From contig JAEZYO010000312.1 in the NCBI GenBank assembly GCA_023419055.1, positions 1 through 7,893 on the forward strand: 7,893 bases of DNA, written 5' to 3'. Position 1 is the stretch's first letter. Every line of letters begins with the position of its first letter. Shown in pieces: positions 553 to 7,882 of the stretch. This stretch comes from Pseudomonadota bacterium. GTDB taxonomy: Bacteria > Myxococcota > Polyangia > Polyangiales > Polyangiaceae. The position numbers and the translations under genes are program-made. The notes below the pieces were generated by a model. It was not told the DNA's origin and did no database searches. It saw only the letters and a program-made list of their open reading frames with translations.

Positions 553-1053
553 TTACTTCTTGGCCTTTTCCTTGGGCGGCTCCTTGAGCTCGATCTCCCA
601 AGTGACGGTCTTCTCGTCGCCCACGTAAGCCGGGACGATCACCGCGCCCATGGCGCGGAGCACGCAGCTGCCGACGGCGGTTTCGGCGTAGGGCGGAGCG
701 ATCTCCGACGACTTTACGTGGCCGTCGTTCTGGAACACCAGGGTCACGTTGGCCGTCCCCGCGGGCGCCTTCTCCGTGACGGAGCCGGGGCAGGTCTCTG
801 CGGAGCGGGCGGCGCGCTTCAGCTCGAGGTCCGCCTGCTTCTCGTCCCACTGGCGCGCCTTCTCGTCGTCGGTCTCGCCGACCTCGCTGTCGTAGTCGTC
901 CGAGCGCTGAGCACTCTGCTTCTCCTGCTCGGCGCCCAAACGCTCCTGTTCGGCGATGAGCTCGTCCGGCGACTTCACGCCTTGGCCTTCCGACGTGGGG
1001 CCACCACAAGCGACCGTGGCACACAACGAAACCCCGAGGAGCAACCGCTTCAT
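553..1053 (-). CDS. Secreted lipoprotein with a C-terminal TonB-C-like domain (AgmX/PglI-type)
   Basis: The product is about 166 residues. It opens with a lipoprotein signal (MKRLLLGVSLCATVAC) in which Cys16 is the predicted acylated residue; the -3 position is Thr, so the lipobox is slightly non-canonical. Residues 28-86 are highly charged (Glu, Gln, Lys, Asp) and probably helical or coiled-coil. Residues 88-157 resemble the TonB-C-like domain common in myxobacterial envelope proteins: a Cys (C88), strand TANVTLVFQNDGHV, then a helix with the second Cys (C130, GSCVLRAMG) and a final strand TVTWEIEL; C88 and C130 could form a disulfide. A Lys-rich tail closes the protein. The ATG at 1053 is preferred over the ATG at 1062 because AGGA lies 8 nt ahead of it, while the upstream ATG overlaps that same AGGA. 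Such domains are usually found in envelope or motility proteins; the actual role here is unknown. Confidence 0.8.
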   Translation of the reverse strand: MKRLLLGVSLCATVACGGPTSEGQGVKSPDELIAEQERLGAEQEKQSAQRSDDYDSEVGETDDEKARQWDEKQADLELKRAARSAETCPGSVTEKAPAGTANVTLVFQNDGHVKSSEIAPPYAETAVGSCVLRAMGAVIVPAYVGDEKTVTWEIELKEPPKEKAKK

Positions 1054-1184
1054 GCGCGGCATCCTAGCCGAGCCCCGCTCGCACAGTCAAAGGGGGAGTC
1101 GCGCGTCCGGGGCGAGCTCTCGAAACCAGCACACCGCCAATTTACAGGGCTTTTGCGCCGTTTCGCTCCGGCGGTGCGCCCGCG

Positions 1185-2549
1185 TCAGAGGTCGGTGATC
1201 TGGTAGTCCTTGATCTTGTAGAGCAGCGCGCGGTGGCTGATTTCGAGCACCTCGGCCGCGCGGGTCCGGTTGCCCTTGGTCTTCTGCAAGGCGCGCCGGA
1301 TCAGGATCTCCTCGATCACGCGCATCGTCTTCTTCACGCTGAGCTCGCCGCTCGAGAGCTGGAGCTGCACGGGGTCTCTCGCTTCGCGGATGCGCTCGGG
1401 CAGGTCGACCGCGACCAGCTGATCGCTTTCCGACAAGACCATGGCGCGCTCGATCGTATTCTCGAGCTCGCGCACGTTGCCGGGCCAGGCGTACTCGTAG
1501 AGCAGCCGGCGAGCCTCGGTGTCGATGCCGCGGATGGCGGTCCCCAGGCGCGCGTTGTTCCGCGCCAGGAAATGATCGATGAGGAGCGGCACGTCCTCCC
1601 GGCGCTCGCGGAGCGGCGGACAGTGGATCGGGAGGACGTTCAGCCGGTAAAACAGATCTTCGCGGAAGCGCCCGGCCTTGGTCTCGCCCAAGAGGTCGCG
1701 GTGCGTCGCCGCGATGATCCGGACATCGACCTGGATGTCTCGCGTCTCCCCGAGGCGCCGGATCTTCTCGTCCTCGAGCACGCGCAGGAGCTTCACCTGC
1801 AGCCCGAGCGGCAGCTCGCCGATCTCGTCGAGAAACAGCGTTCCACCGCTGGCCTCTTCGAACAGGCCGCGACGATCCTGGACGGCGTCCGTGAAGGCGC
1901 CCTTCTTGTGACCGAAGAGCTCGCTCTCGAGCAGGTTCTCGGGGATCGCGCCGCAGTTGATCGCGACGAAATTGCCGCCGCGCCGGTTGCTGCGGCGGTG
2001 GATGGCGCGCGCGATGAGCTCCTTCCCCACCCCGCTCTCGCCGGTCACGAGCACCGTGGTCTTGTAGTCCGCTATTTTCGCGATCGTCTTGAAGATGTCC
2101 TGCATCTTCTGGCTCTTCGCGAGGATGTCTTCGAACTTGTGCTCCTTCCGGATCTCGTCGCGGAGCACGCGGTTCTCGCGGCGCAAGAGCTCTCGCTCCT
2201 CGGCCTTGCGCAACGCGAGCACGACCTCGTCCGGCTTGAAGGGCTTCTGGACGTAGTCGTAGGCGCCCGCCTTCATGGCCTCGATCGCGAGATCCATGTT
2301 CCCGTACGCGCTCATCACGATCACGGTGGCGAGGTTGCCCTTGGCCTTCAGCGTGCTCAAAAGATCGAGCCCGCCCATCTTCGGCATGCGGACGTCCGTG
2401 AGGATGACGTCGGGGCCGAACGAGTCGACCATGGCGAGCGCCTCCTCCCCGCTCTCGGCCGTCTCGACCTCGTACCCATGCCGGCGCAGCAGGGTCTTCA
2501 AGACCAGCCGGAGGTTTTCCTCATCATCGACGACCAGAACGCGGCGCAC
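1185..2549 (-). CDS. NtrC-family sigma-54-dependent response regulator (REC-AAA+-Fis HTH)
   Basis: From the GTG at 2549 the protein has 454 residues, normal for the family. Residues 1-120 are a receiver domain with the acidic pair D8/D9, phospho-acceptor D52 (LTDVRMP), switch Ser80 and K102 (QKPF). A linker helix leads to the AAA+ sigma-54 interaction domain: Walker A GESGVGKE at 170-177, the sigma-54-contacting loop at 217-222 (GAFTDA instead of the usual GAFTGA), Walker [12 protein letters not shown] at 235-245, then the R-finger region [14 protein letters not shown]. The C-terminus has a Fis-type helix-turn-helix ([23 protein letters not shown]). It should remodel sigma-54 RNA polymerase at enhancer-bound promoters after phosphorylation. 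No histidine kinase is adjacent. The frame can be extended to an ATG at 2597 or a TTG at 2645, but 2550-2597 has AT-rich codons atypical of this genome and family members begin just before VLVVDDEE; no candidate has a good ribosome binding site. Target genes cannot be read from the window. Confidence 0.93.
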
Positions 2550-2714
2550 TCTGCAAAAAATGCTAACTTGCGCCGTGGAAGGCTGCAACGACTTCATAGC
2601 ACCGACCCGGTGGCCAGCGAGCTCCAGCCGGGCAAAGGTGCCCAATCAATTCGCCTATTTTCCGTCGCTAGGGCGACAAACGGTTGAGCCGGTGCGCTCG
2701 CCGCTAAGCGGCCG

Positions 2715-2890: not shown

Positions 2891-4108
2891 ATGCTGTGCG
2901 GACTCGATCAGCTCTACATGGGGGCCTCGTCGGACTTGCGCCGGCGGCTCCGGACTTCCCGTCTCGCTGTCCTGACCCACGCCGCAGCCGTCGATCGAAG
3001 GGGGCGGCAGACGCTCGCGGTGCTGGAGGAGCTCGGCGCTTCCCCGCGCGTCATTTTCGCTCCGGAGCACGGCCTCGACGCGGACGCTCAAGCCGAAGAA
3101 GCGGTCGGCTCGCGCGAGAACGTGGACGCGACGGGAGCGCCGGCTTTCGTCAGCCTGTACGGAAAGACACGCGAGGACCTGGTTCCGCGCCCCGAGCAGC
3201 TCGCGGACCTCGAGCTTTTGGTGATCGACCTCTGCGACGTGGGCGCGCGCTACTACACGTACGTCTGGACGGCCCTGCTCGCGGCGCGCGCTGCCGCGGA
3301 GCGTGGCATCCACACGGTGGTGCTCGATCGACCGAACCCGATCTCCGGCGATCCCTCCACGCTCGAGGGCGCTCCGCAGGAGCCGGGCTTCCTGTCGTTC
3401 GTCGGCCTCGAGCCGCTCCCGATCCGCCACGCGCTGACGATCGGGGAGATTTTGGCACTGTTTTTCGAACGCGACGGCAAGCCGATCGGAAGCAGCGGGG
3501 CGTTGAGCGTCGTTCCGGTGCGCGGCTGGGAGCGCCACCGCAGCGCCGAGGCGTGGGGGCGCCCGTTCATCATGCCTTCCCCGAACATGCCGACGCTCGA
3601 GACCGCGCTGGTCTACCCCGGCGGTTGCCTGATCGAGGGCACGAACCTCTCCGAGGGCCGCGGCACGACCGCGCCGTTCCAGCTGGTCGGTGCGCCGTTC
3701 CTCGACGGCGCCGCGCTCGCGAAGAGCCTCGGAGAATCCGGCGTCCCCGGCGTGCTGGTTCGTCCGGTGACGTTCCGTCCGAGCTTCGAAAAGTTCGCCG
3801 GCGAGCGTTGCAATGGCGTGATGCTGCACATCACCAACGAGAAGCTCTTCCGGCCCGTCGAGACCTACCTGACGCTGCTCTGCCTGGCTCGCCAGCAGGC
3901 ACCCGAGCAGTTCCAGTTTCGGGCCACGCCGTACGAGTTCGAGAGCGAAACCCCGGCCTTCGACCTTCTGACGGGTTCGTCCAAGGCGCGGCTCGCCATG
4001 CTCGAAGGCGCTCGCCCGGAGGACGTGATCGCGAGCGTCATCCCTGTCGATAGCGCGTGGCAAGAGACGGTGCGCGAAGCGGAAGCGCGGCTCGAACGCG
4101 CGCTGTGA
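2891..4108 (+). CDS. namZ: DUF1343 / NamZ-type exo-beta-N-acetylmuramidase
   Basis: The 405-residue protein matches DUF1343 (YbbC/NamZ) across its length. In order: VCGLD-like start and RLAVLTHAAAVDRRGR (24-39), FAPEHGL (56-62), SLYGKTR (88-94), DVGARYYTY (116-124), LDRPNP (145-150), VGLEPLPIRHALTIGE (171-186), SPNMPTLET (230-238) and YPGGCLIEGTNLSEGRGTT (242-260). The characterised member, Bacillus subtilis NamZ, removes terminal MurNAc from peptidoglycan fragments, so a role in muropeptide recycling or wall turnover follows from family knowledge. No signal peptide is visible, so the enzyme is probably cytoplasmic unless exported otherwise. No other recycling gene (nagZ, amiE, murQ) is in the window. 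The ATG at 2891 fits the family N-terminus although its ribosome binding site is poor. The gene converges on the aminopeptidase gene with 3 bp between stops. Confidence 0.9.
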   Translation: MLCGLDQLYMGASSDLRRRLRTSRLAVLTHAAAVDRRGRQTLAVLEELGASPRVIFAPEHGLDADAQAEEAVGSRENVDATGAPAFVSLYGKTREDLVPRPEQLADLELLVIDLCDVGARYYTYVWTALLAARAAAERGIHTVVLDRPNPISGDPSTLEGAPQEPGFLSFVGLEPLPIRHALTIGEILALFFERDGKPIGSSGALSVVPVRGWERHRSAEAWGRPFIMPSPNMPTLETALVYPGGCLIEGTNLSEGRGTTAPFQLVGAPFLDGAALAKSLGESGVPGVLVRPVTFRPSFEKFAGERCNGVMLHITNEKLFRPVETYLTLLCLARQQAPEQFQFRATPYEFESETPAFDLLTGSSKARLAMLEGARPEDVIASVIPVDSAWQETVREAEARLERAL

Positions 4109-4111
4109 GCG

Positions 4112-5482
4112 CTACGCGCCGAGCTCGTCGAGCGTCTTCGGGATCGCGCGCGTCAGGACTTCGCAGCCCGTTTCGGTGACGAGCACGTCGTCCTCGATGC
4201 GGATGCCGCGCACGTCCGCGTAGCGGGCGAGCACGGCGCGGTCGAGCGCGGGCTCGAGCTCTCCCACCTCCTCGGCGCGCTCCAAGATGTGCGGGATTCG
4301 ATAGAAGCCGGGCTCGATGGTCACCACCATGCCGGGCAAGAGGTCACGGTCGAGCCGAAGGTAGCGGTCACCGGGCGACGCGCTCCGTTCACGCCCCGGC
4401 GCGTAGCCCGCGAGATCGCCGAGATCTTCCATGTCGTGAACGTCGAGCCCGAGCAGGTGACCGATGCCGTGAGGAAAGAAGAGCGCCGCGGCGCCGCGAC
4501 GGTAGAGGTCCTCTTCGTCGCCCTTCAAGATGCCGAGGCTGACGAGACCGTCGACCAGCTTTCGCCCGGCGACGCGGTGCACGTCGAGGTAACGCGCGCC
4601 CGGGCGAACCGCCGAGATGGCGGCGAGCTGCGCGTCGAGCACGACCTGATAGAGCTCGCGCTGGGTCGTCGAGAAGCGACCGCTCGCTGGCCAGACGCGC
4701 GTCACGTCGCCGGCCCAACCTTCGGGGCTCTCGGCGCCCACGTCCGCGAGCAACAGATCGCCCTCTCCGATCACGTGGTCGTAGCGGTTGTTGTGCAGCA
4801 CCTCACCCGCCACCGTGACGATGGGCTGATACGCGGGCACGCAGCCGACCGAGAGCATCGCGCCCTCCATGGCGCCGCGCACGCTCGCTTCTTTCCGCCC
4901 TGGACGCGTCGCCGCGCGACCGGCCTCGTGGGCGAGTCGGGTCGCCTCCGCCGCGAAGCGCAGCTGCTCGATCGCGGCGTCGTCGTGACGGAGCCGGAGC
5001 TCGACCACGAGCTCGGCGAGCGCTCGATCGGGCTCCTCGAGATCGGGGCCGAGCTCGGGCTCGAGATCGCGGCCGACGAGCTCGCTCTGCCAGAACACGG
5101 TCTCCAAGTCTTGAGCGGGGAGCGTCGCCGTGGCTCCGTCGACCTCGAGCGCCTCGAGGGGCAGTACTTCGATCCCGAGCTCCGCCTCGAGCTCCTGCAA
5201 CGTCGGCTGCGGTCCCGTCCACATGGCCTCTTCGGGATCCGGCGGTGCCGCGAACAAGATCGCTCGATCGGGCCGAACCACGAGCGCGGCGCCTTCGATC
5301 GCCCGGCCGACGAAGTACAAGAAATGGCTCTCGGCGCGGAACGGGTAAGGGTTGTGAACGAAGTTCCGGGGGCGCGCGCGACCAGCCGGGAAGAGAGCCG
5401 AAGAAGCTAGTCGTTCCGATAGCTTACGGCGGCGTGCCGCAAAGACGTGAGGAGGCGTCGAAGGAGGTCGTGCGTCAGTCAC
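4112..5482 (-). CDS. pepP: Xaa-Pro aminopeptidase (aminopeptidase P, peptidase M24B)
   Basis: From the GTG at 5482 the protein has 456 residues, usual for bacterial aminopeptidase P. The N-terminal creatinase-like domain shows FAARRRKLSERL (14-25), RNF..NPYPFRAESHFLYFVG (39-59). The C-terminal pita-bread domain has all five dinuclear metal ligands: D247 (LLLADVGAE), D259 (GDVTRVWP), H342 (GIGHLLGLDVHD), E390 (TIEPGFY) and E430 (RIEDD), plus conserved H230 (EVLHNNRYDH) and H349. It should remove an N-terminal residue preceding proline, normally with Mn2+, in the cytoplasm. The GTG start has GAGGG 8 nt upstream and matches family length. The alternative ATG at 5569 adds 29 residues unlike the family and would start inside a perfect palindrome. 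The gene is divergent from the bufferin operon and convergent with the NamZ-type gene; no functional link is evident. Confidence 0.93.
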   Translation of the reverse strand: MTDARPPSTPPHVFAARRRKLSERLASSALFPAGRARPRNFVHNPYPFRAESHFLYFVGRAIEGAALVVRPDRAILFAAPPDPEEAMWTGPQPTLQELEAELGIEVLPLEALEVDGATATLPAQDLETVFWQSELVGRDLEPELGPDLEEPDRALAELVVELRLRHDDAAIEQLRFAAEATRLAHEAGRAATRPGRKEASVRGAMEGAMLSVGCVPAYQPIVTVAGEVLHNNRYDHVIGEGDLLLADVGAESPEGWAGDVTRVWPASGRFSTTQRELYQVVLDAQLAAISAVRPGARYLDVHRVAGRKLVDGLVSLGILKGDEEDLYRRGAAALFFPHGIGHLLGLDVHDMEDLGDLAGYAPGRERSASPGDRYLRLDRDLLPGMVVTIEPGFYRIPHILERAEEVGELEPALDRAVLARYADVRGIRIEDDVLVTETGCEVLTRAIPKTLDELGA

Positions 5483-5564
5483 TAGCCCGCCCTCGAGGGT
5501 AGCAGATAAAGTCGAGCGCTCGCCGGTTGAAACCCAATCGCTGGCTCGGCGTAGGACGACGCGG

Positions 5565-5581
5565 AGCATTCGCCGAATGCT
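5565..5581. promoter_or_regulatory. Perfect 7-3-7 palindrome between pepP and bufA (candidate operator)
   Basis: AGCATTC at 5565-5571 and GAATGCT at 5575-5581 are exact reverse complements around GCC. The site sits 83 bp upstream of the pepP GTG and 120 bp upstream of the bufA ATG. The arms are of mixed base composition, so GC bias alone does not explain it. A dimeric repressor or activator serving either or both divergent genes would fit; no regulator gene is next to it in the window. Confidence 0.4.
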
Positions 5582-5664: not shown

Positions 5665-5692
5665 GAACTTTCACCCACATCACTGAACGAAG

Positions 5693-5697
5693 AGGAG
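5693..5697 (+). promoter_or_regulatory. Shine-Dalgarno of bufA
   Basis: AGGAG, embedded in a purine run from 5688, lies 4 nt before the ATG at 5702. It is one of the strongest ribosome binding sites in the window and contrasts with bufB, which has none. This fits a precursor made in excess of its modifying enzyme. Confidence 0.75.
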
Positions 5698-5701
5698 AGA
5701 G

Positions 5702-6022
5702 ATGGCTTTCAATCTAGCGAAGACGGTAGCTTCTGGTCTCATGGTGGGTGCGCTCGCCGCGTGCGGCGGCAGCCAGCCCGCGCCGGAAGCGCCTGCGGCA
5801 GAGGCCCCTGCGGCGGAGGCCCCCGCGGCCCCGGAGGCGCCTGCTGCGGACGCCCCGGCAGCCGAGACCGAGCCCACCGCGGCGGCCGGCGAAGCCAAAG
5901 CCTGCTGCAAGGGCATGAACGAGTGCAAGGGCAAGGGCGGCTGCAAGACCGACACCAACGCGTGCGCCGGCAAGAACGAGTGCAAGGGTAAGGGCGGCTG
6001 CAACATGCACTGTCCGAAGTGA
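5702..6022 (+). CDS. bufA: Bufferin-type RiPP precursor, lipoprotein variant with duplicated Cys-rich core
   Basis: A 106-residue protein in three parts. Residues 1-21 form a signal peptide ending in a good lipobox (L18-A19-A20-C21, then GG), so Cys21 is predicted to be cleaved by signal peptidase II and acylated. Residues 24-66 are an Ala/Pro/Glu linker. Residues 68-106 hold eight cysteines (68, 69, 75, 81, 88, 94, 100, 104) in two tandem 19-residue units, each built on CxGxNECKGKGGC. This core resembles Cys-rich bufferin precursors of the non-DUF2282 kind, recalled as CKGxNxCKGxG and CKT repeats, and the next two genes are the bufferin maturation pair DUF692 and DUF2063. In characterised bufferins the MNIO enzyme converts cysteines to thiooxazole groups and the exported product binds copper. 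The same role is inferred here; which cysteines are modified is unknown. Membrane anchoring through a lipid is unusual for the class. Confidence 0.85.
   Translation: MAFNLAKTVASGLMVGALAACGGSQPAPEAPAAEAPAAEAPAAPEAPAADAPAAETEPTAAAGEAKACCKGMNECKGKGGCKTDTNACAGKNECKGKGGCNMHCPK
5771..5901 (+). repeat. Low-complexity Ala/Pro/Glu linker coding repeat
   Basis: Within bufA, short GC-rich units encoding APAAE or APAAPE recur (for example GCCCCTGCGGCGGAG next to near copies), giving an extended acidic spacer of about 43 residues. This kind of tract can change length by slippage. Proline-rich linkers of this sort commonly lift a domain away from the membrane after a lipidated cysteine, which fits the predicted lipoprotein. 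Confidence 0.7.
5906..6019 (+). repeat. 57-bp tandem duplication encoding two Cys-rich units of BufA
   Basis: Units 5906-5962 and 5963-6019 encode residues 69-87 and 88-106. Over the first 13 residues 11 are identical. Within this, the DNA for NECKGKGGC is the same except for a single synonymous change (GGC to GGT). The near identity of codons points to recent duplication or gene conversion, or to strong constraint on codon choice. The unit tails differ: KTDTNA in the first and NMHCPK in the second, which adds a further Cys and a His. Confidence 0.8.
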
Positions 6023-6029
6023 TTCGAGC

Positions 6030-6083
6030 GAGCCCGCGCAGAGCACGACTCGTCGCCCTCGGCGCGGGCTCTCCCCTTATTTT
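6030..6083 (+). terminator. Terminator- or attenuator-like stem-loop between bufA and bufB
   Basis: GAGCCCGCGC at 6030-6039 is the exact complement of GCGCGGGCTC at 6062-6071, a 10-bp GC-rich stem with a 22-nt loop that can itself fold a little (CGAC-TC-GTCG). Five bases after the stem comes TTATTTT (6077-6083), an unusual T run for this DNA, ending 3 nt before the bufB ATG. The arrangement looks like a leaky intrinsic terminator that would lower enzyme expression relative to precursor; stabilising the bufA 3' end is an alternative. Confidence 0.6.
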
Positions 6084-6086
6084 CGC

Positions 6087-7067
6087 ATGAATCAAGAAGA
6101 CGCTCGCCTCGGCTTACCCGATCTGGGCATCGGCGTCGGCCTCCGGGTCCCGCACTATCGGCACATCCTCGCAGAGCGCCCGGCGGTCGACTTCTTCGAG
6201 GTGATCAGCGAAAACTTCATGGGCCACGGCGGGCGCCCTCGCTACCACCTCGAGCGCGTGCTCGAGACCTATCGCGTGGTCCAACACGGGGTCTCGCTCG
6301 GAATCGGGAGCCCGGAGGGGCCGAGCCGCGAGTACCTGGAAGCGCTGAAGAGGTGCTGTCGAAAGACGTCGACGCCCTGGGTCAGCGACCACTTCTGCTG
6401 GAGCGGCGCGGGCGGCGCGCACCTCCACGATCTCCTTCCCCTGCCCTACACGCGTGAAGCGGTCGAGCGCCTCGTCGAGCGCGCGCGCATGGTGCAAGAC
6501 TTTCTCGAGGTCCCCTTCGCGCTCGAAAACACCTCGAGCTACCTCACCTACCGATCGAGCACGCTCTCGGAGTGGGAGTTCATCGCGGAGATCGCGGAGC
6601 GCGCGAACATCGGTCTGCTGTTCGACGTGAACAACGTGTTCGTGTCCGCGTACAATCACGGGTTCGATCCCGTCGAGTTCGTGAAGAGCATTCCCCATCG
6701 GCGCGTGCTGCAGATCCACCTCGCCGGTCACACGAACCTCGGGAAATACATCGTCGACACGCACCGCGGCGCGGTCAGCGACCCGGTGTGGACCCTCTAC
6801 GAGCTCACGATCGCGCACACGGGCCCGGTCTCGACCCTGATCGAATGGGACGACGAGATCCCCGAGTTTTCTCGCCTGGCCGCTGAAGCCGAGCGCGCGC
6901 GGAGGGTTCGCGCCAGCGCGCTCGAGACGCGCGCGAGCGATCCGGACTTCGCGGTCCGGCTCGAAGAGGTGCGCCGACTCGCTCGAGCTCCGGAGGGCTC
7001 GGCTCTGGCTCCTACCCCCGGTTGGCTCCAGGGCGGCCCGCGCGAGACGGAGCTGTCCGCGCCATGA
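6087..7067 (+). CDS. bufB: DUF692 multinuclear non-heme iron oxidase (MNIO), bufferin maturase
   Basis: The 326-residue protein is a full DUF692 (MbnB/BufB) TIM-barrel enzyme. Conserved blocks in order: GIGVGLRVPHY (14-24), FFEVISENFM (36-45), QHGVSLGIGS (66-75), VSDHFCWSG (99-107), HDLLPLPYT (114-122), ALENTSSY (145-152), LLFDVNNVFVSAYNHGFD (177-194), QIHLAGH (209-215), VDTH (223-226) and TLIEWDDEIP (250-259). The His, Asp, Asn and Glu residues in these blocks include the expected iron ligands (for example H68, D101, E147, D180, H211, D224, E253). Family members use O2 and mixed-valent iron to oxidise peptide cysteines. The core normally ends near residue 275; about 50 extra residues follow, Arg- and Ala-rich then Pro/Gly-rich. 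No Shine-Dalgarno precedes the ATG, and the stop overlaps the bufC start. Its substrate is presumably the adjacent BufA. Confidence 0.95.
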   Translation: MNQEDARLGLPDLGIGVGLRVPHYRHILAERPAVDFFEVISENFMGHGGRPRYHLERVLETYRVVQHGVSLGIGSPEGPSREYLEALKRCCRKTSTPWVSDHFCWSGAGGAHLHDLLPLPYTREAVERLVERARMVQDFLEVPFALENTSSYLTYRSSTLSEWEFIAEIAERANIGLLFDVNNVFVSAYNHGFDPVEFVKSIPHRRVLQIHLAGHTNLGKYIVDTHRGAVSDPVWTLYELTIAHTGPVSTLIEWDDEIPEFSRLAAEAERARRVRASALETRASDPDFAVRLEEVRRLARAPEGSALAPTPGWLQGGPRETELSAP

Positions 7068-7882
7068 GCCTCGACGAGCTGCAGCAGGTCGCGGCCAGGC
7101 TCGTCCGAAGTCGGCGTGCGCTCCCCGCTCGCCCCGACGCAACGGCGTTCGCCGGCGCGCAGATCTCGGGGAACGCGCGGCTCTCGCCGGTGGAGCAACT
7201 CGAGATCTATCGGGAGCAGTTCTGGCTCCGGCACACGCAGGCCCTGCTCGAGGACTTTCCCGGAGTCGCCGGCATCATCGGGCAGGGTGATTGGGAACGC
7301 CTGTGCGAGGAGTACCTCGAGCGAACGCCGCCCGCGAGCTACGACCTCGCCGAGCTCGGCCGCGAGTTCCCGGAGCAGGTCGCGCGGAGCGAGTGGCTCG
7401 AGCACCGCGAGCTCGTGACGGACATGGCCCGCCTCGAGTGGGCGTACGTCGTGGCGTTCGGCGCCGAAGACGTCCAAAGTCTCGACCCGGCGGCGATCGC
7501 GGCAGTACCGGACGACGCTTGGGAGAGCGCGAAGCTCGTGCTCTCGCCCTCGCTCGGCCTGCTTCGCGTCTCTTATCCCGTCGTCGCGCTGCGCCGGAGG
7601 CTCGTTACGCCGGAGGACGGTCCCGTTGCGATCCCCGAGCCCGAAGCGGCCCGCCTCGCCGTGTTCCGCCGCGAGCTCTCGACGCGCGTCGAGCCGCTCG
7701 GCGAGGCGGCTTTCGCGCTGCTCGAGTCGTTGAGCCTGGGAAACGCGCTGATGCCGGCGGTTCAAGCCGCGTCGGAACGAGCTCGGGTTTCGCTGGACGA
7801 GATCGGCGCGGAGCTCGGTGGCTGGTTCAGCGCCTGGAGCCGCGAGGGGATCGTGACCGGAATCGTCACGCGCGCCGTTTGA
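7064..7882 (+). CDS. bufC: DUF2063 partner protein of the MNIO enzyme (BufC-like)
   Basis: The ATG at 7064 overlaps the bufB stop (ATGA), which indicates translational coupling and a fixed start; an upstream in-frame ATG at 7022 lies inside bufB and is not needed. The 272-residue protein begins with a DUF2063-type helical domain (about 1-107): LDELQQVAARLV, then LSPVEQLEIYREQFWLRHTQ and ALLEDFPGVAGIIGQGDWERLC, YL..TPPASYDLAELG..FPEQV. The rest alternates hydrophobic and Arg-rich segments and probably forms the RiPP-recognition-like domain known for MbnC and BufC. In studied systems this protein forms a complex with the MNIO enzyme and helps bind the precursor. Although DUF2063 is often annotated as a putative DNA-binding domain, the operon setting favours the RiPP role. 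The gene is complete, ending 11 bp before the window edge. Confidence 0.92.
   Translation: MSLDELQQVAARLVRSRRALPARPDATAFAGAQISGNARLSPVEQLEIYREQFWLRHTQALLEDFPGVAGIIGQGDWERLCEEYLERTPPASYDLAELGREFPEQVARSEWLEHRELVTDMARLEWAYVVAFGAEDVQSLDPAAIAAVPDDAWESAKLVLSPSLGLLRVSYPVVALRRRLVTPEDGPVAIPEPEAARLAVFRRELSTRVEPLGEAAFALLESLSLGNALMPAVQAASERARVSLDEIGAELGGWFSAWSREGIVTGIVTRAV

Follow-up and report, generated by a model that had tools for sequence, protein, structure and literature searches.

The 7,893-nucleotide contig JAEZYO010000312.1, which we call the window and which is the whole stretch of DNA analyzed here, carries a three-gene operon, bufABC. We are fairly confident that this operon specifies a lipid-anchored variant of the Buf2-type bufferins that buffers copper in the envelope and that is probably controlled in trans as part of a SigF/NrsF-type regulon, i.e., by an extracytoplasmic function (ECF) sigma factor and its NrsF anti-sigma factor. 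The original prediction, made from the sequence, had described a small secreted Cys-rich protein, a DUF692 MNIO oxidase and a DUF2063 protein, in this order and with the last two coupled by ATGA, as the minimal bufferin layout. All of these are in place, and the lipoprotein signal of BufA, its 8-Cys core and an upstream element are added to them:

5529-5553, plus strand: ECF-sigma-like promoter element GAAACC-N15-CGTA (-35-like box 5529-5534, -10-like box 5550-5553), conserved upstream of bufA and the same before ECF-nrsF genes
5692-5697, plus strand: likely ribosome-binding site GAGGAG, from sequence reading
5702-6022, plus strand: bufA, Buf2-type lipoprotein precursor of 106 amino acids (open reading frame, NF050166 score, homologues, alignment)
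5702-5764, plus strand: predicted lipoprotein signal peptide, lipobox LAA/C21, Cys codon 5762-5764 (sequence, alignment, regular expression)
5765-5902, plus strand: linker rich in Ala, Pro and Glu, of variable length (sequence, alignments)
5903-6019, plus strand: 8-Cys core, residues 68-106 (Cys pattern, invariant alignment columns)
6087-7067, plus strand: bufB, MNIO oxidase (PF05114, formerly DUF692; Pfam, NCBIfam, EWDD motif)
7064-7882, plus strand: bufC, DUF2063 partner with an RRE-like C-terminal part (RRE, RiPP recognition element; Pfam, structure model)

The bufC start codon at 7064 overlaps the bufB stop codon (7065-7067) to give the ATGA, and the order of precursor, MNIO and DUF2063 partner, all on one strand, is that of bufferin gene clusters.

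The N terminus of BufA, MAFNLAKTVASGLMVGALAAC21, reads as a Sec-type signal peptide of the lipoprotein kind with the lipobox LAAC, as judged from the sequence and a simple pattern, not SignalP. The word "secreted" of the original prediction is to be replaced by "predicted lipoprotein". C21 is nearly invariant (at least 90%) in an alignment of 37 sequences, and 103 of 120 homologues match a simple regular expression for a lipobox-like sequence (counts of BufA homologues refer to the best 120 of 621 matches). The 39-residue core has Cys at 68, 69, 75, 81, 88, 94, 100 and 104; nine core columns are invariant in the 37-sequence alignment, and seven of these are Cys 68, 69, 75, 81, 88, 94 and 104. 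The motif CC-x5-C-x5-C-x6/7-C-x5-C-x5-C-x3..6-C forms the C-terminal end of 93 of the 120 homologues, and a simpler count of core Cys gave 8 in 83, 12 in 13, 16 in 11 and other numbers in 13. Among the 93 8-Cys homologues, Lys directly follows Cys 2, 3, 4 and 6 in 87, 79, 62 and 88, compared with 21 for Cys 5 and 15 for Cys 7; from this preference, C69, C75, C81 and C94 are the predicted modification sites. Precursors P0028, P0035 and P0039 carry the 8-Cys module doubled, with 16 core Cys.

BufA matched no Pfam family at E<=0.001. This agrees with the earlier statement that the core is not of the DUF2282 type and rules out a Buf1 identity (PF10048); an EGKCG/oxazolin core is likewise ruled out, the motif being absent from the window BufA. 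Against the NCBIfam BufA2 model (NF050166), BufA scored 36.1 bits (E=5.5e-9), under the curated cut-off of 60, and we therefore classify it as a variant related to Buf2 that falls outside the family as NF050166 defines it. Canonical precursors at three related loci (L018, L022, L024) have six Cys with a spacing of 5-5-6-5-12 or 13. Our alignment A1 pairs five invariant Cys of the window (C69, C75, C81, C88 and C94) with canonical C1-C5; the window has C68, C100 and C104 in addition and no counterpart of the canonical C6 loop. The core has 8 Cys, five aligned with C1-C5, where 6 (or 12) conserved Cys define Buf2. The low score, the two additional Cys and a C terminus unlike that of canonical Buf2 would suit a new, non-bufferin MNIO substrate, in which modification affects fewer residues or different ones, and the CC and C-x3-C ends are joined in disulfides or make up a metal site with another function. 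We regard this as very unlikely, given that canonical BufA2 has the same five Cys and both Asn in the core and that BufB scores above the bufferin-maturase cut-off. When ten precursors from other loci were scanned, the BufA2 model gave 22-46 bits for five of the six Polyangia-type ones and no match for the sixth (L010); L016 scored 18 bits, and L019, L022 and L024 scored 68-102 bits. The present BufA2 profile under-calls the 8-Cys Buf2 branch.

The maturation proteins fit the bufferin assignment. BufB matches PF05114 at E=2.4e-104 and NCBIfam MNIO_BufB (NF050167) with 331.6 bits, above the cut-off of 310; among solved structures, its sequence relatives are 3bww (a DUF692 protein), TglH and MbnB. 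MNIOs of the Cys-Lys type are described as having an Asp beside the catalytic Asp, where EGKCG-type enzymes have Phe (PMC13097082). We equated this Asp, by motif and not by structure, with the second Asp of the BufB EWDD (residues 253-256), which is present in 120/120 MNIO homologues (the best 120 of 7998 matches) and in 22 of 25 related loci (the exceptions being Glu in L010, Ala in L019 and Gly in L023). By this motif the window BufB is a predicted Cys-Lys type MNIO. BufC matches PF09836 (DUF2063) with 60.8 bits (cut-off 27.2) and the HvfC family with 40.1 bits, under the cut-off of 142. A BufC model built from 16 sequences has a pLDDT (predicted local distance difference test) of 94, and its sole matches in the PDB at E<0.001 are TglI (8hi7_A, 8hci_A) and NGO1945 (3dee); the match to the lasso-peptide RRE TbiB1 (5v1u) has an E of about 1 and a probability of up to 0.89. 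The model suggests that BufC is a TglI/NGO1945-type partner, and the bufferin partner has been described as a DUF2063 domain fused to an RRE (PMC12452194).

BufB relatives are encoded at 25 genome loci. The closest to the window, at 57-72% identity, come from organisms labeled Sorangium, Myxococcales, Polyangiaceae, Polyangia or Deltaproteobacteria, consistent with the earlier suggestion of a probable myxobacterium. In the two relatives that were Pfam-scanned, L002 and L010, NtrC-type, namZ and pepP genes again precede bufABC, and other loci have similar layouts by appearance (without a Pfam scan). The CxxxNxC precursor core was found at 20 of the 25 loci, which makes the arrangement more than a chance one, and was not found at L006, L007, L017, L023 and L025. 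At L017, the match lies 176 nucleotides from the contig start; L023 and L025 carry other Cys-rich open reading frames. At L006 and L007 (around 5700-6001), bufB adjoins the pepP side with neither an adjacent CxxxNxC precursor nor the promoter-like element; the precursor may have been lost or be located elsewhere. The 8-Cys lipoprotein type recurs in Polyangia with the common neighbors pepP, namZ and ntrC.

The promoter-like element was studied upstream of bufA at 15 loci, one of them the window. An ungapped k-mer search gave TGAAACCG in 11/15 upstream regions, where the top k-mer of each of three shuffled sets reached 9-10, a weak signal by itself. A two-box pattern was then made by eye from the same bufA upstream regions on which it was first counted, so that the following figures of 11/15 and 14/15 are descriptive: GAAAC[CT]-N14-18-C[GA]TA occurs 12 times, in 11/15 loci, at most 250 nucleotides upstream of bufA, and once in the remaining 337 kb on both strands, and GAAACY-N15-17-CGTA with at most one mismatch is found at 14/15 (L015 being without it) versus 0.31 expected. 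The boxes are conserved and the spacers variable, with strand and position upstream of bufA fixed.

Inspection of the genes 3' of all 74 matches to the element in six genomes revealed related ECF sigma genes in four genomes, and in the three ECF pairs scanned the adjacent next gene encodes NrsF above the Pfam cut-off. A protein search then showed that 12 of 16 genomes have a close ECF orthologue with an NrsF gene next to it. GAAAC[CT]-N16-CGTA lies upstream of 12/12 of these orthologues, eight of which the pattern had not previously shown, versus 0/18 other ECF matches in these first 16 genomes. Across 60 genomes from the family, including nine that had been covered before, a close ECF is present in 14; nine matches in eight new genomes include seven with NrsF beside them, and the element precedes 7/7. 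Pooled under the same rule, the element is upstream of 19/19 ECF genes with NrsF versus 0/20 other ECF matches, the out-of-sample evidence being the eight close orthologues not found via the pattern and the seven in new genomes.

This resembles the SigF-NrsF system of Caulobacter, in which SigF reads GTAACC-N16-CGAA before its own gene and before two precursor-DUF692-DUF2063 operons (PMC3511200); the Polyangia element differs from it as GAAACY-N15/16-CGTA. Replacement of C131 and C181 in Caulobacter NrsF raises SigF-dependent expression (PMC3511200). Three Cys are common to 12/12 Polyangia NrsF proteins compared, and two of them lie 50 alignment columns apart, equal to the C131-C181 spacing of 50. 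The signature of a SigF/NrsF regulon, one element common to the operon and to the sigF-nrsF pair, is present in the relatives; the window shows the element alone, and the ECF-NrsF pair was not seen beside bufABC in the Polyangia relatives. From these sequence comparisons, bufABC is probably under a SigF/NrsF-type regulon in trans.

The link between sigma factor and operon can also be followed genome by genome. In the initial set of 16 genomes, bufA or bufB has the strict element before it in 10/12 with a close ECF and 0/4 without (p 0.008, kinship ignored). A further set, 21 of 24 bufB genomes (three returned no loci), has the element at most 900 nucleotides before bufB in 3/4 with a close ECF and 4/17 without (p 0.09, kinship ignored). 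Pooled, the sets give 13/16 versus 4/21 (p 0.0002, kinship ignored). Two of the four sites in genomes without a close ECF are 841 and 532 nucleotides from bufB and may not be bufA promoters. We rejected the reading that genomes without a close ECF have no such regulator: 14 of these 21 have a PF06532 match, 12 of them above the cut-off, and an ECF gene adjoins 20/21 of the PF06532 matches. GA[AT]AC[CT]-N14-17-C[GA]TA is upstream of 5/20 of these distant PF06532-linked ECF genes. The sigma link is not exclusive outside the close ECF clade. Upstream of bufB at L014, L220, L221, L223, L227 and L228, GATACC-N15/16-CGTA replaces GAAACC, i.e., in 5/17 further genomes without a close ECF and likewise at L014; several of these sites hold GTAGCC within the spacer. 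The variant may represent the promoter class of a further sigma factor linked to NrsF.

Several results weigh against our interpretation. The two-box pattern was drawn from the sequences it was counted on, and in six genomes GAAACCN15-16CRTA had 74 matches versus 69 for a reversed-pattern control, i.e., background frequency; a regulon defined by genome-wide element search alone was rejected on these counts. One close ECF gene (L196) has neither NrsF nor the element, and another (L198) lacks the element, its downstream side being cut by the contig end. To these are added the weaker link to bufB in the further genomes, the BufA score below the BufA2 cut-off and an AlphaFold2 model of BufA (37 sequences) that is unusable at a pLDDT of 52. 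In addition, we found no experiments on an 8-Cys member in the literature searched. It could therefore be argued that GAAACC-N15-CGTA is not the bufABC promoter, or that a sigma factor not linked to NrsF reads it, the operon being constitutive or otherwise controlled. The background frequency fits this view, as do the 17 loci without a close ECF, where the strict element is found in 4 and the GATACC variant in 5, and the presence of the element alone in the window. We nevertheless judge it unlikely, in light of the fixed strand and position at 14/15 bufA genes, the 19/19 versus 0/20 distribution among ECF genes, and the frequency of more distant ECF-NrsF pairs in genomes without a close ECF.

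Under the interpretation of bufABC as a lipid-anchored Buf2-type operon, BufC (DUF2063-RRE) would bring the precursor BufA to BufB, an iron oxidase that would turn core Cys, most likely the Lys-followed C69, C75, C81 and C94, into 5-thiooxazoles with a loss of 4 Da each. Modified BufA would be exported by Sec, lipidated on C21 and cleaved. By the sorting rule for E. coli lipoproteins, Gly at +2 would direct it to the outer membrane, the linker keeping the core in the periplasm, where it would buffer copper excess and may do so for other thiol-seeking metals as well. Transcription would most likely start from the ECF-type promoter, read by a sigma factor resembling SigF that an NrsF anti-sigma factor, encoded elsewhere, keeps in check. 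The copper role is suggested by the family and strengthened somewhat by the element shared with a metal-stress SigF-type ECF-NrsF pair. With the same maturation, the main ligand or inducer might instead be something other than copper, the product buffering thiol-binding metals in general (Cd, Cr, Au, Hg) or envelope stress. In Caulobacter, SigF/NrsF is responsive to chromium and cadmium (PMC3511200), the GIG operons of Legionella and Cupriavidus are reported to respond to gold, and a Pfam scan found no copper genes in the window other than bufABC; tested bufferins and related thiooxazole peptides, however, bind copper (PMC12452194, PMC13097082), and we think a ligand or inducer other than copper unlikely.

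The same element precedes other MNIO operons. Of 46 MNIO matches in the first 16 genomes, the 30 with DNA were checked (16 were left out), and the element is upstream of 16/23 MNIO operons in genomes with a close ECF versus 0/7 in the others. Within the close-ECF genomes, it is present at 10/12 operons with 8-Cys precursors; for 6-Cys non-lipid precursors, at L145 and L142 and not at L149; and for CGAGTCG-like lipoproteins ending in CxxxxC, at L154-L157 and not at L152 or L159. It is absent from two loci there without a recognized precursor. A tentative extension, to which we give slightly less than an even chance, is that one SigF/NrsF-type switch commands in trans several Polyangia MNIO operons, of the 8-Cys lipo-bufferin, 6-Cys non-lipid Buf2 and CxxxxC lipoprotein types, which together would form a layered periplasmic and outer-membrane metal buffer, with the 8-Cys Buf2 class under-called by the existing profile.

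Earlier work already covers bufferins, predicted lipidated forms of them, and the control of bufferin-type operons by SigF-NrsF. The window shares with Buf2/BufA2 bufferins (NF050166; Antoine et al. 2025, PMC12452194) the bufA-bufB-bufC order, the MNIO and DUF2063-RRE proteins, the signal peptide and a Lys-rich CxxxNxC core, and about 16% of the Buf2 precursors in that paper are predicted lipoproteins. It differs in having 8 core Cys, not 6 (or 12), and ends of the CC and C-x3-C kind, in its BufA2 score below the cut-off and in lacking a DoxX gene from pepP to the end of the window. In PMC12452194, sigma-factor and NrsF genes are placed in Buf1 and not in Buf2 clusters, and Buf2 has 6 or 12 Cys. 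DAG-RiPPs such as NedA, a lipidated oxazolin that combines the lipoprotein and MNIO pathways, likewise have a lipoprotein signal on an MNIO-modified precursor and a DUF2063 partner; NedA has EGKCG motifs (PMC12636315), whereas the window core has CKGxNxC. Captophorins/fontiphorin and the oxazolin of PMC13097082 share the MNIO and DUF2063 partner, Cys next to Lys and an expected thiooxazole, but have Lys-Cys repeats and a Phe beside the catalytic Asp of the enzyme, in contrast to the Cys-Lys type predicted here. CorE of Myxococcus xanthus is also an ECF sigma factor of a myxobacterium and depends on copper (PMC3107203); unlike CorE, the sigma genes of the Polyangia relatives precede NrsF. Our search of open papers, supplements excluded, turned up neither the lipidated 8-Cys Buf2 branch nor the promoter link, and does not establish that they are absent from print. 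The element shared with an unlinked ECF-NrsF pair names a testable regulator for this branch in Polyangia, and the link would extend the Caulobacter SigF-NrsF-bufferin connection to myxobacteria.

The remainder of the window, whose G+C content is 61-72% per 500 bases, holds four neighboring genes:

553-1062, minus strand: putative lipoprotein-like small open reading frame, VACGG lipobox, no Pfam match
1185-2645, minus strand: ntrC, NtrC-type response regulator (Pfam)
2891-4108, plus strand: namZ, NamZ (Pfam)
4112-5569, minus strand: pepP, aminopeptidase P (M24), a neighbor outside the buf system (open reading frame list, Pfam, loci of relatives)

The longest pepP reading frame runs over the promoter element at 5529-5553, and the real pepP start is probably further inside it. 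The NtrC-type regulator was rejected as the bufABC regulator; in our judgment it belongs to the neighbor block that recurs in L002 and L010, and the element is ECF-like.

Some further arrangements were seen in the relatives. A CxxxxC lipoprotein precursor followed by an MNIO gene, with the same ECF-like element upstream, occurs at L057:1234-2501 and L070:1414-2600 and also at L154, L155, L156 and L157; by motif only, this type resembles a group described in PMC12452194 and PMC12636315. In genome G002 (L076:1-1199), the element is followed by doxX and then by an MNIO operon whose precursor is of the 6-Cys non-lipid type. A gene for a YceI-like lipoprotein stands immediately before the CxxxxC MNIO operon of L070, and YceI-like lipoprotein genes with the element upstream are found at L073:452-1309 and L079:465-1748 (genomes G001 and G002); they are possible members of the regulon.

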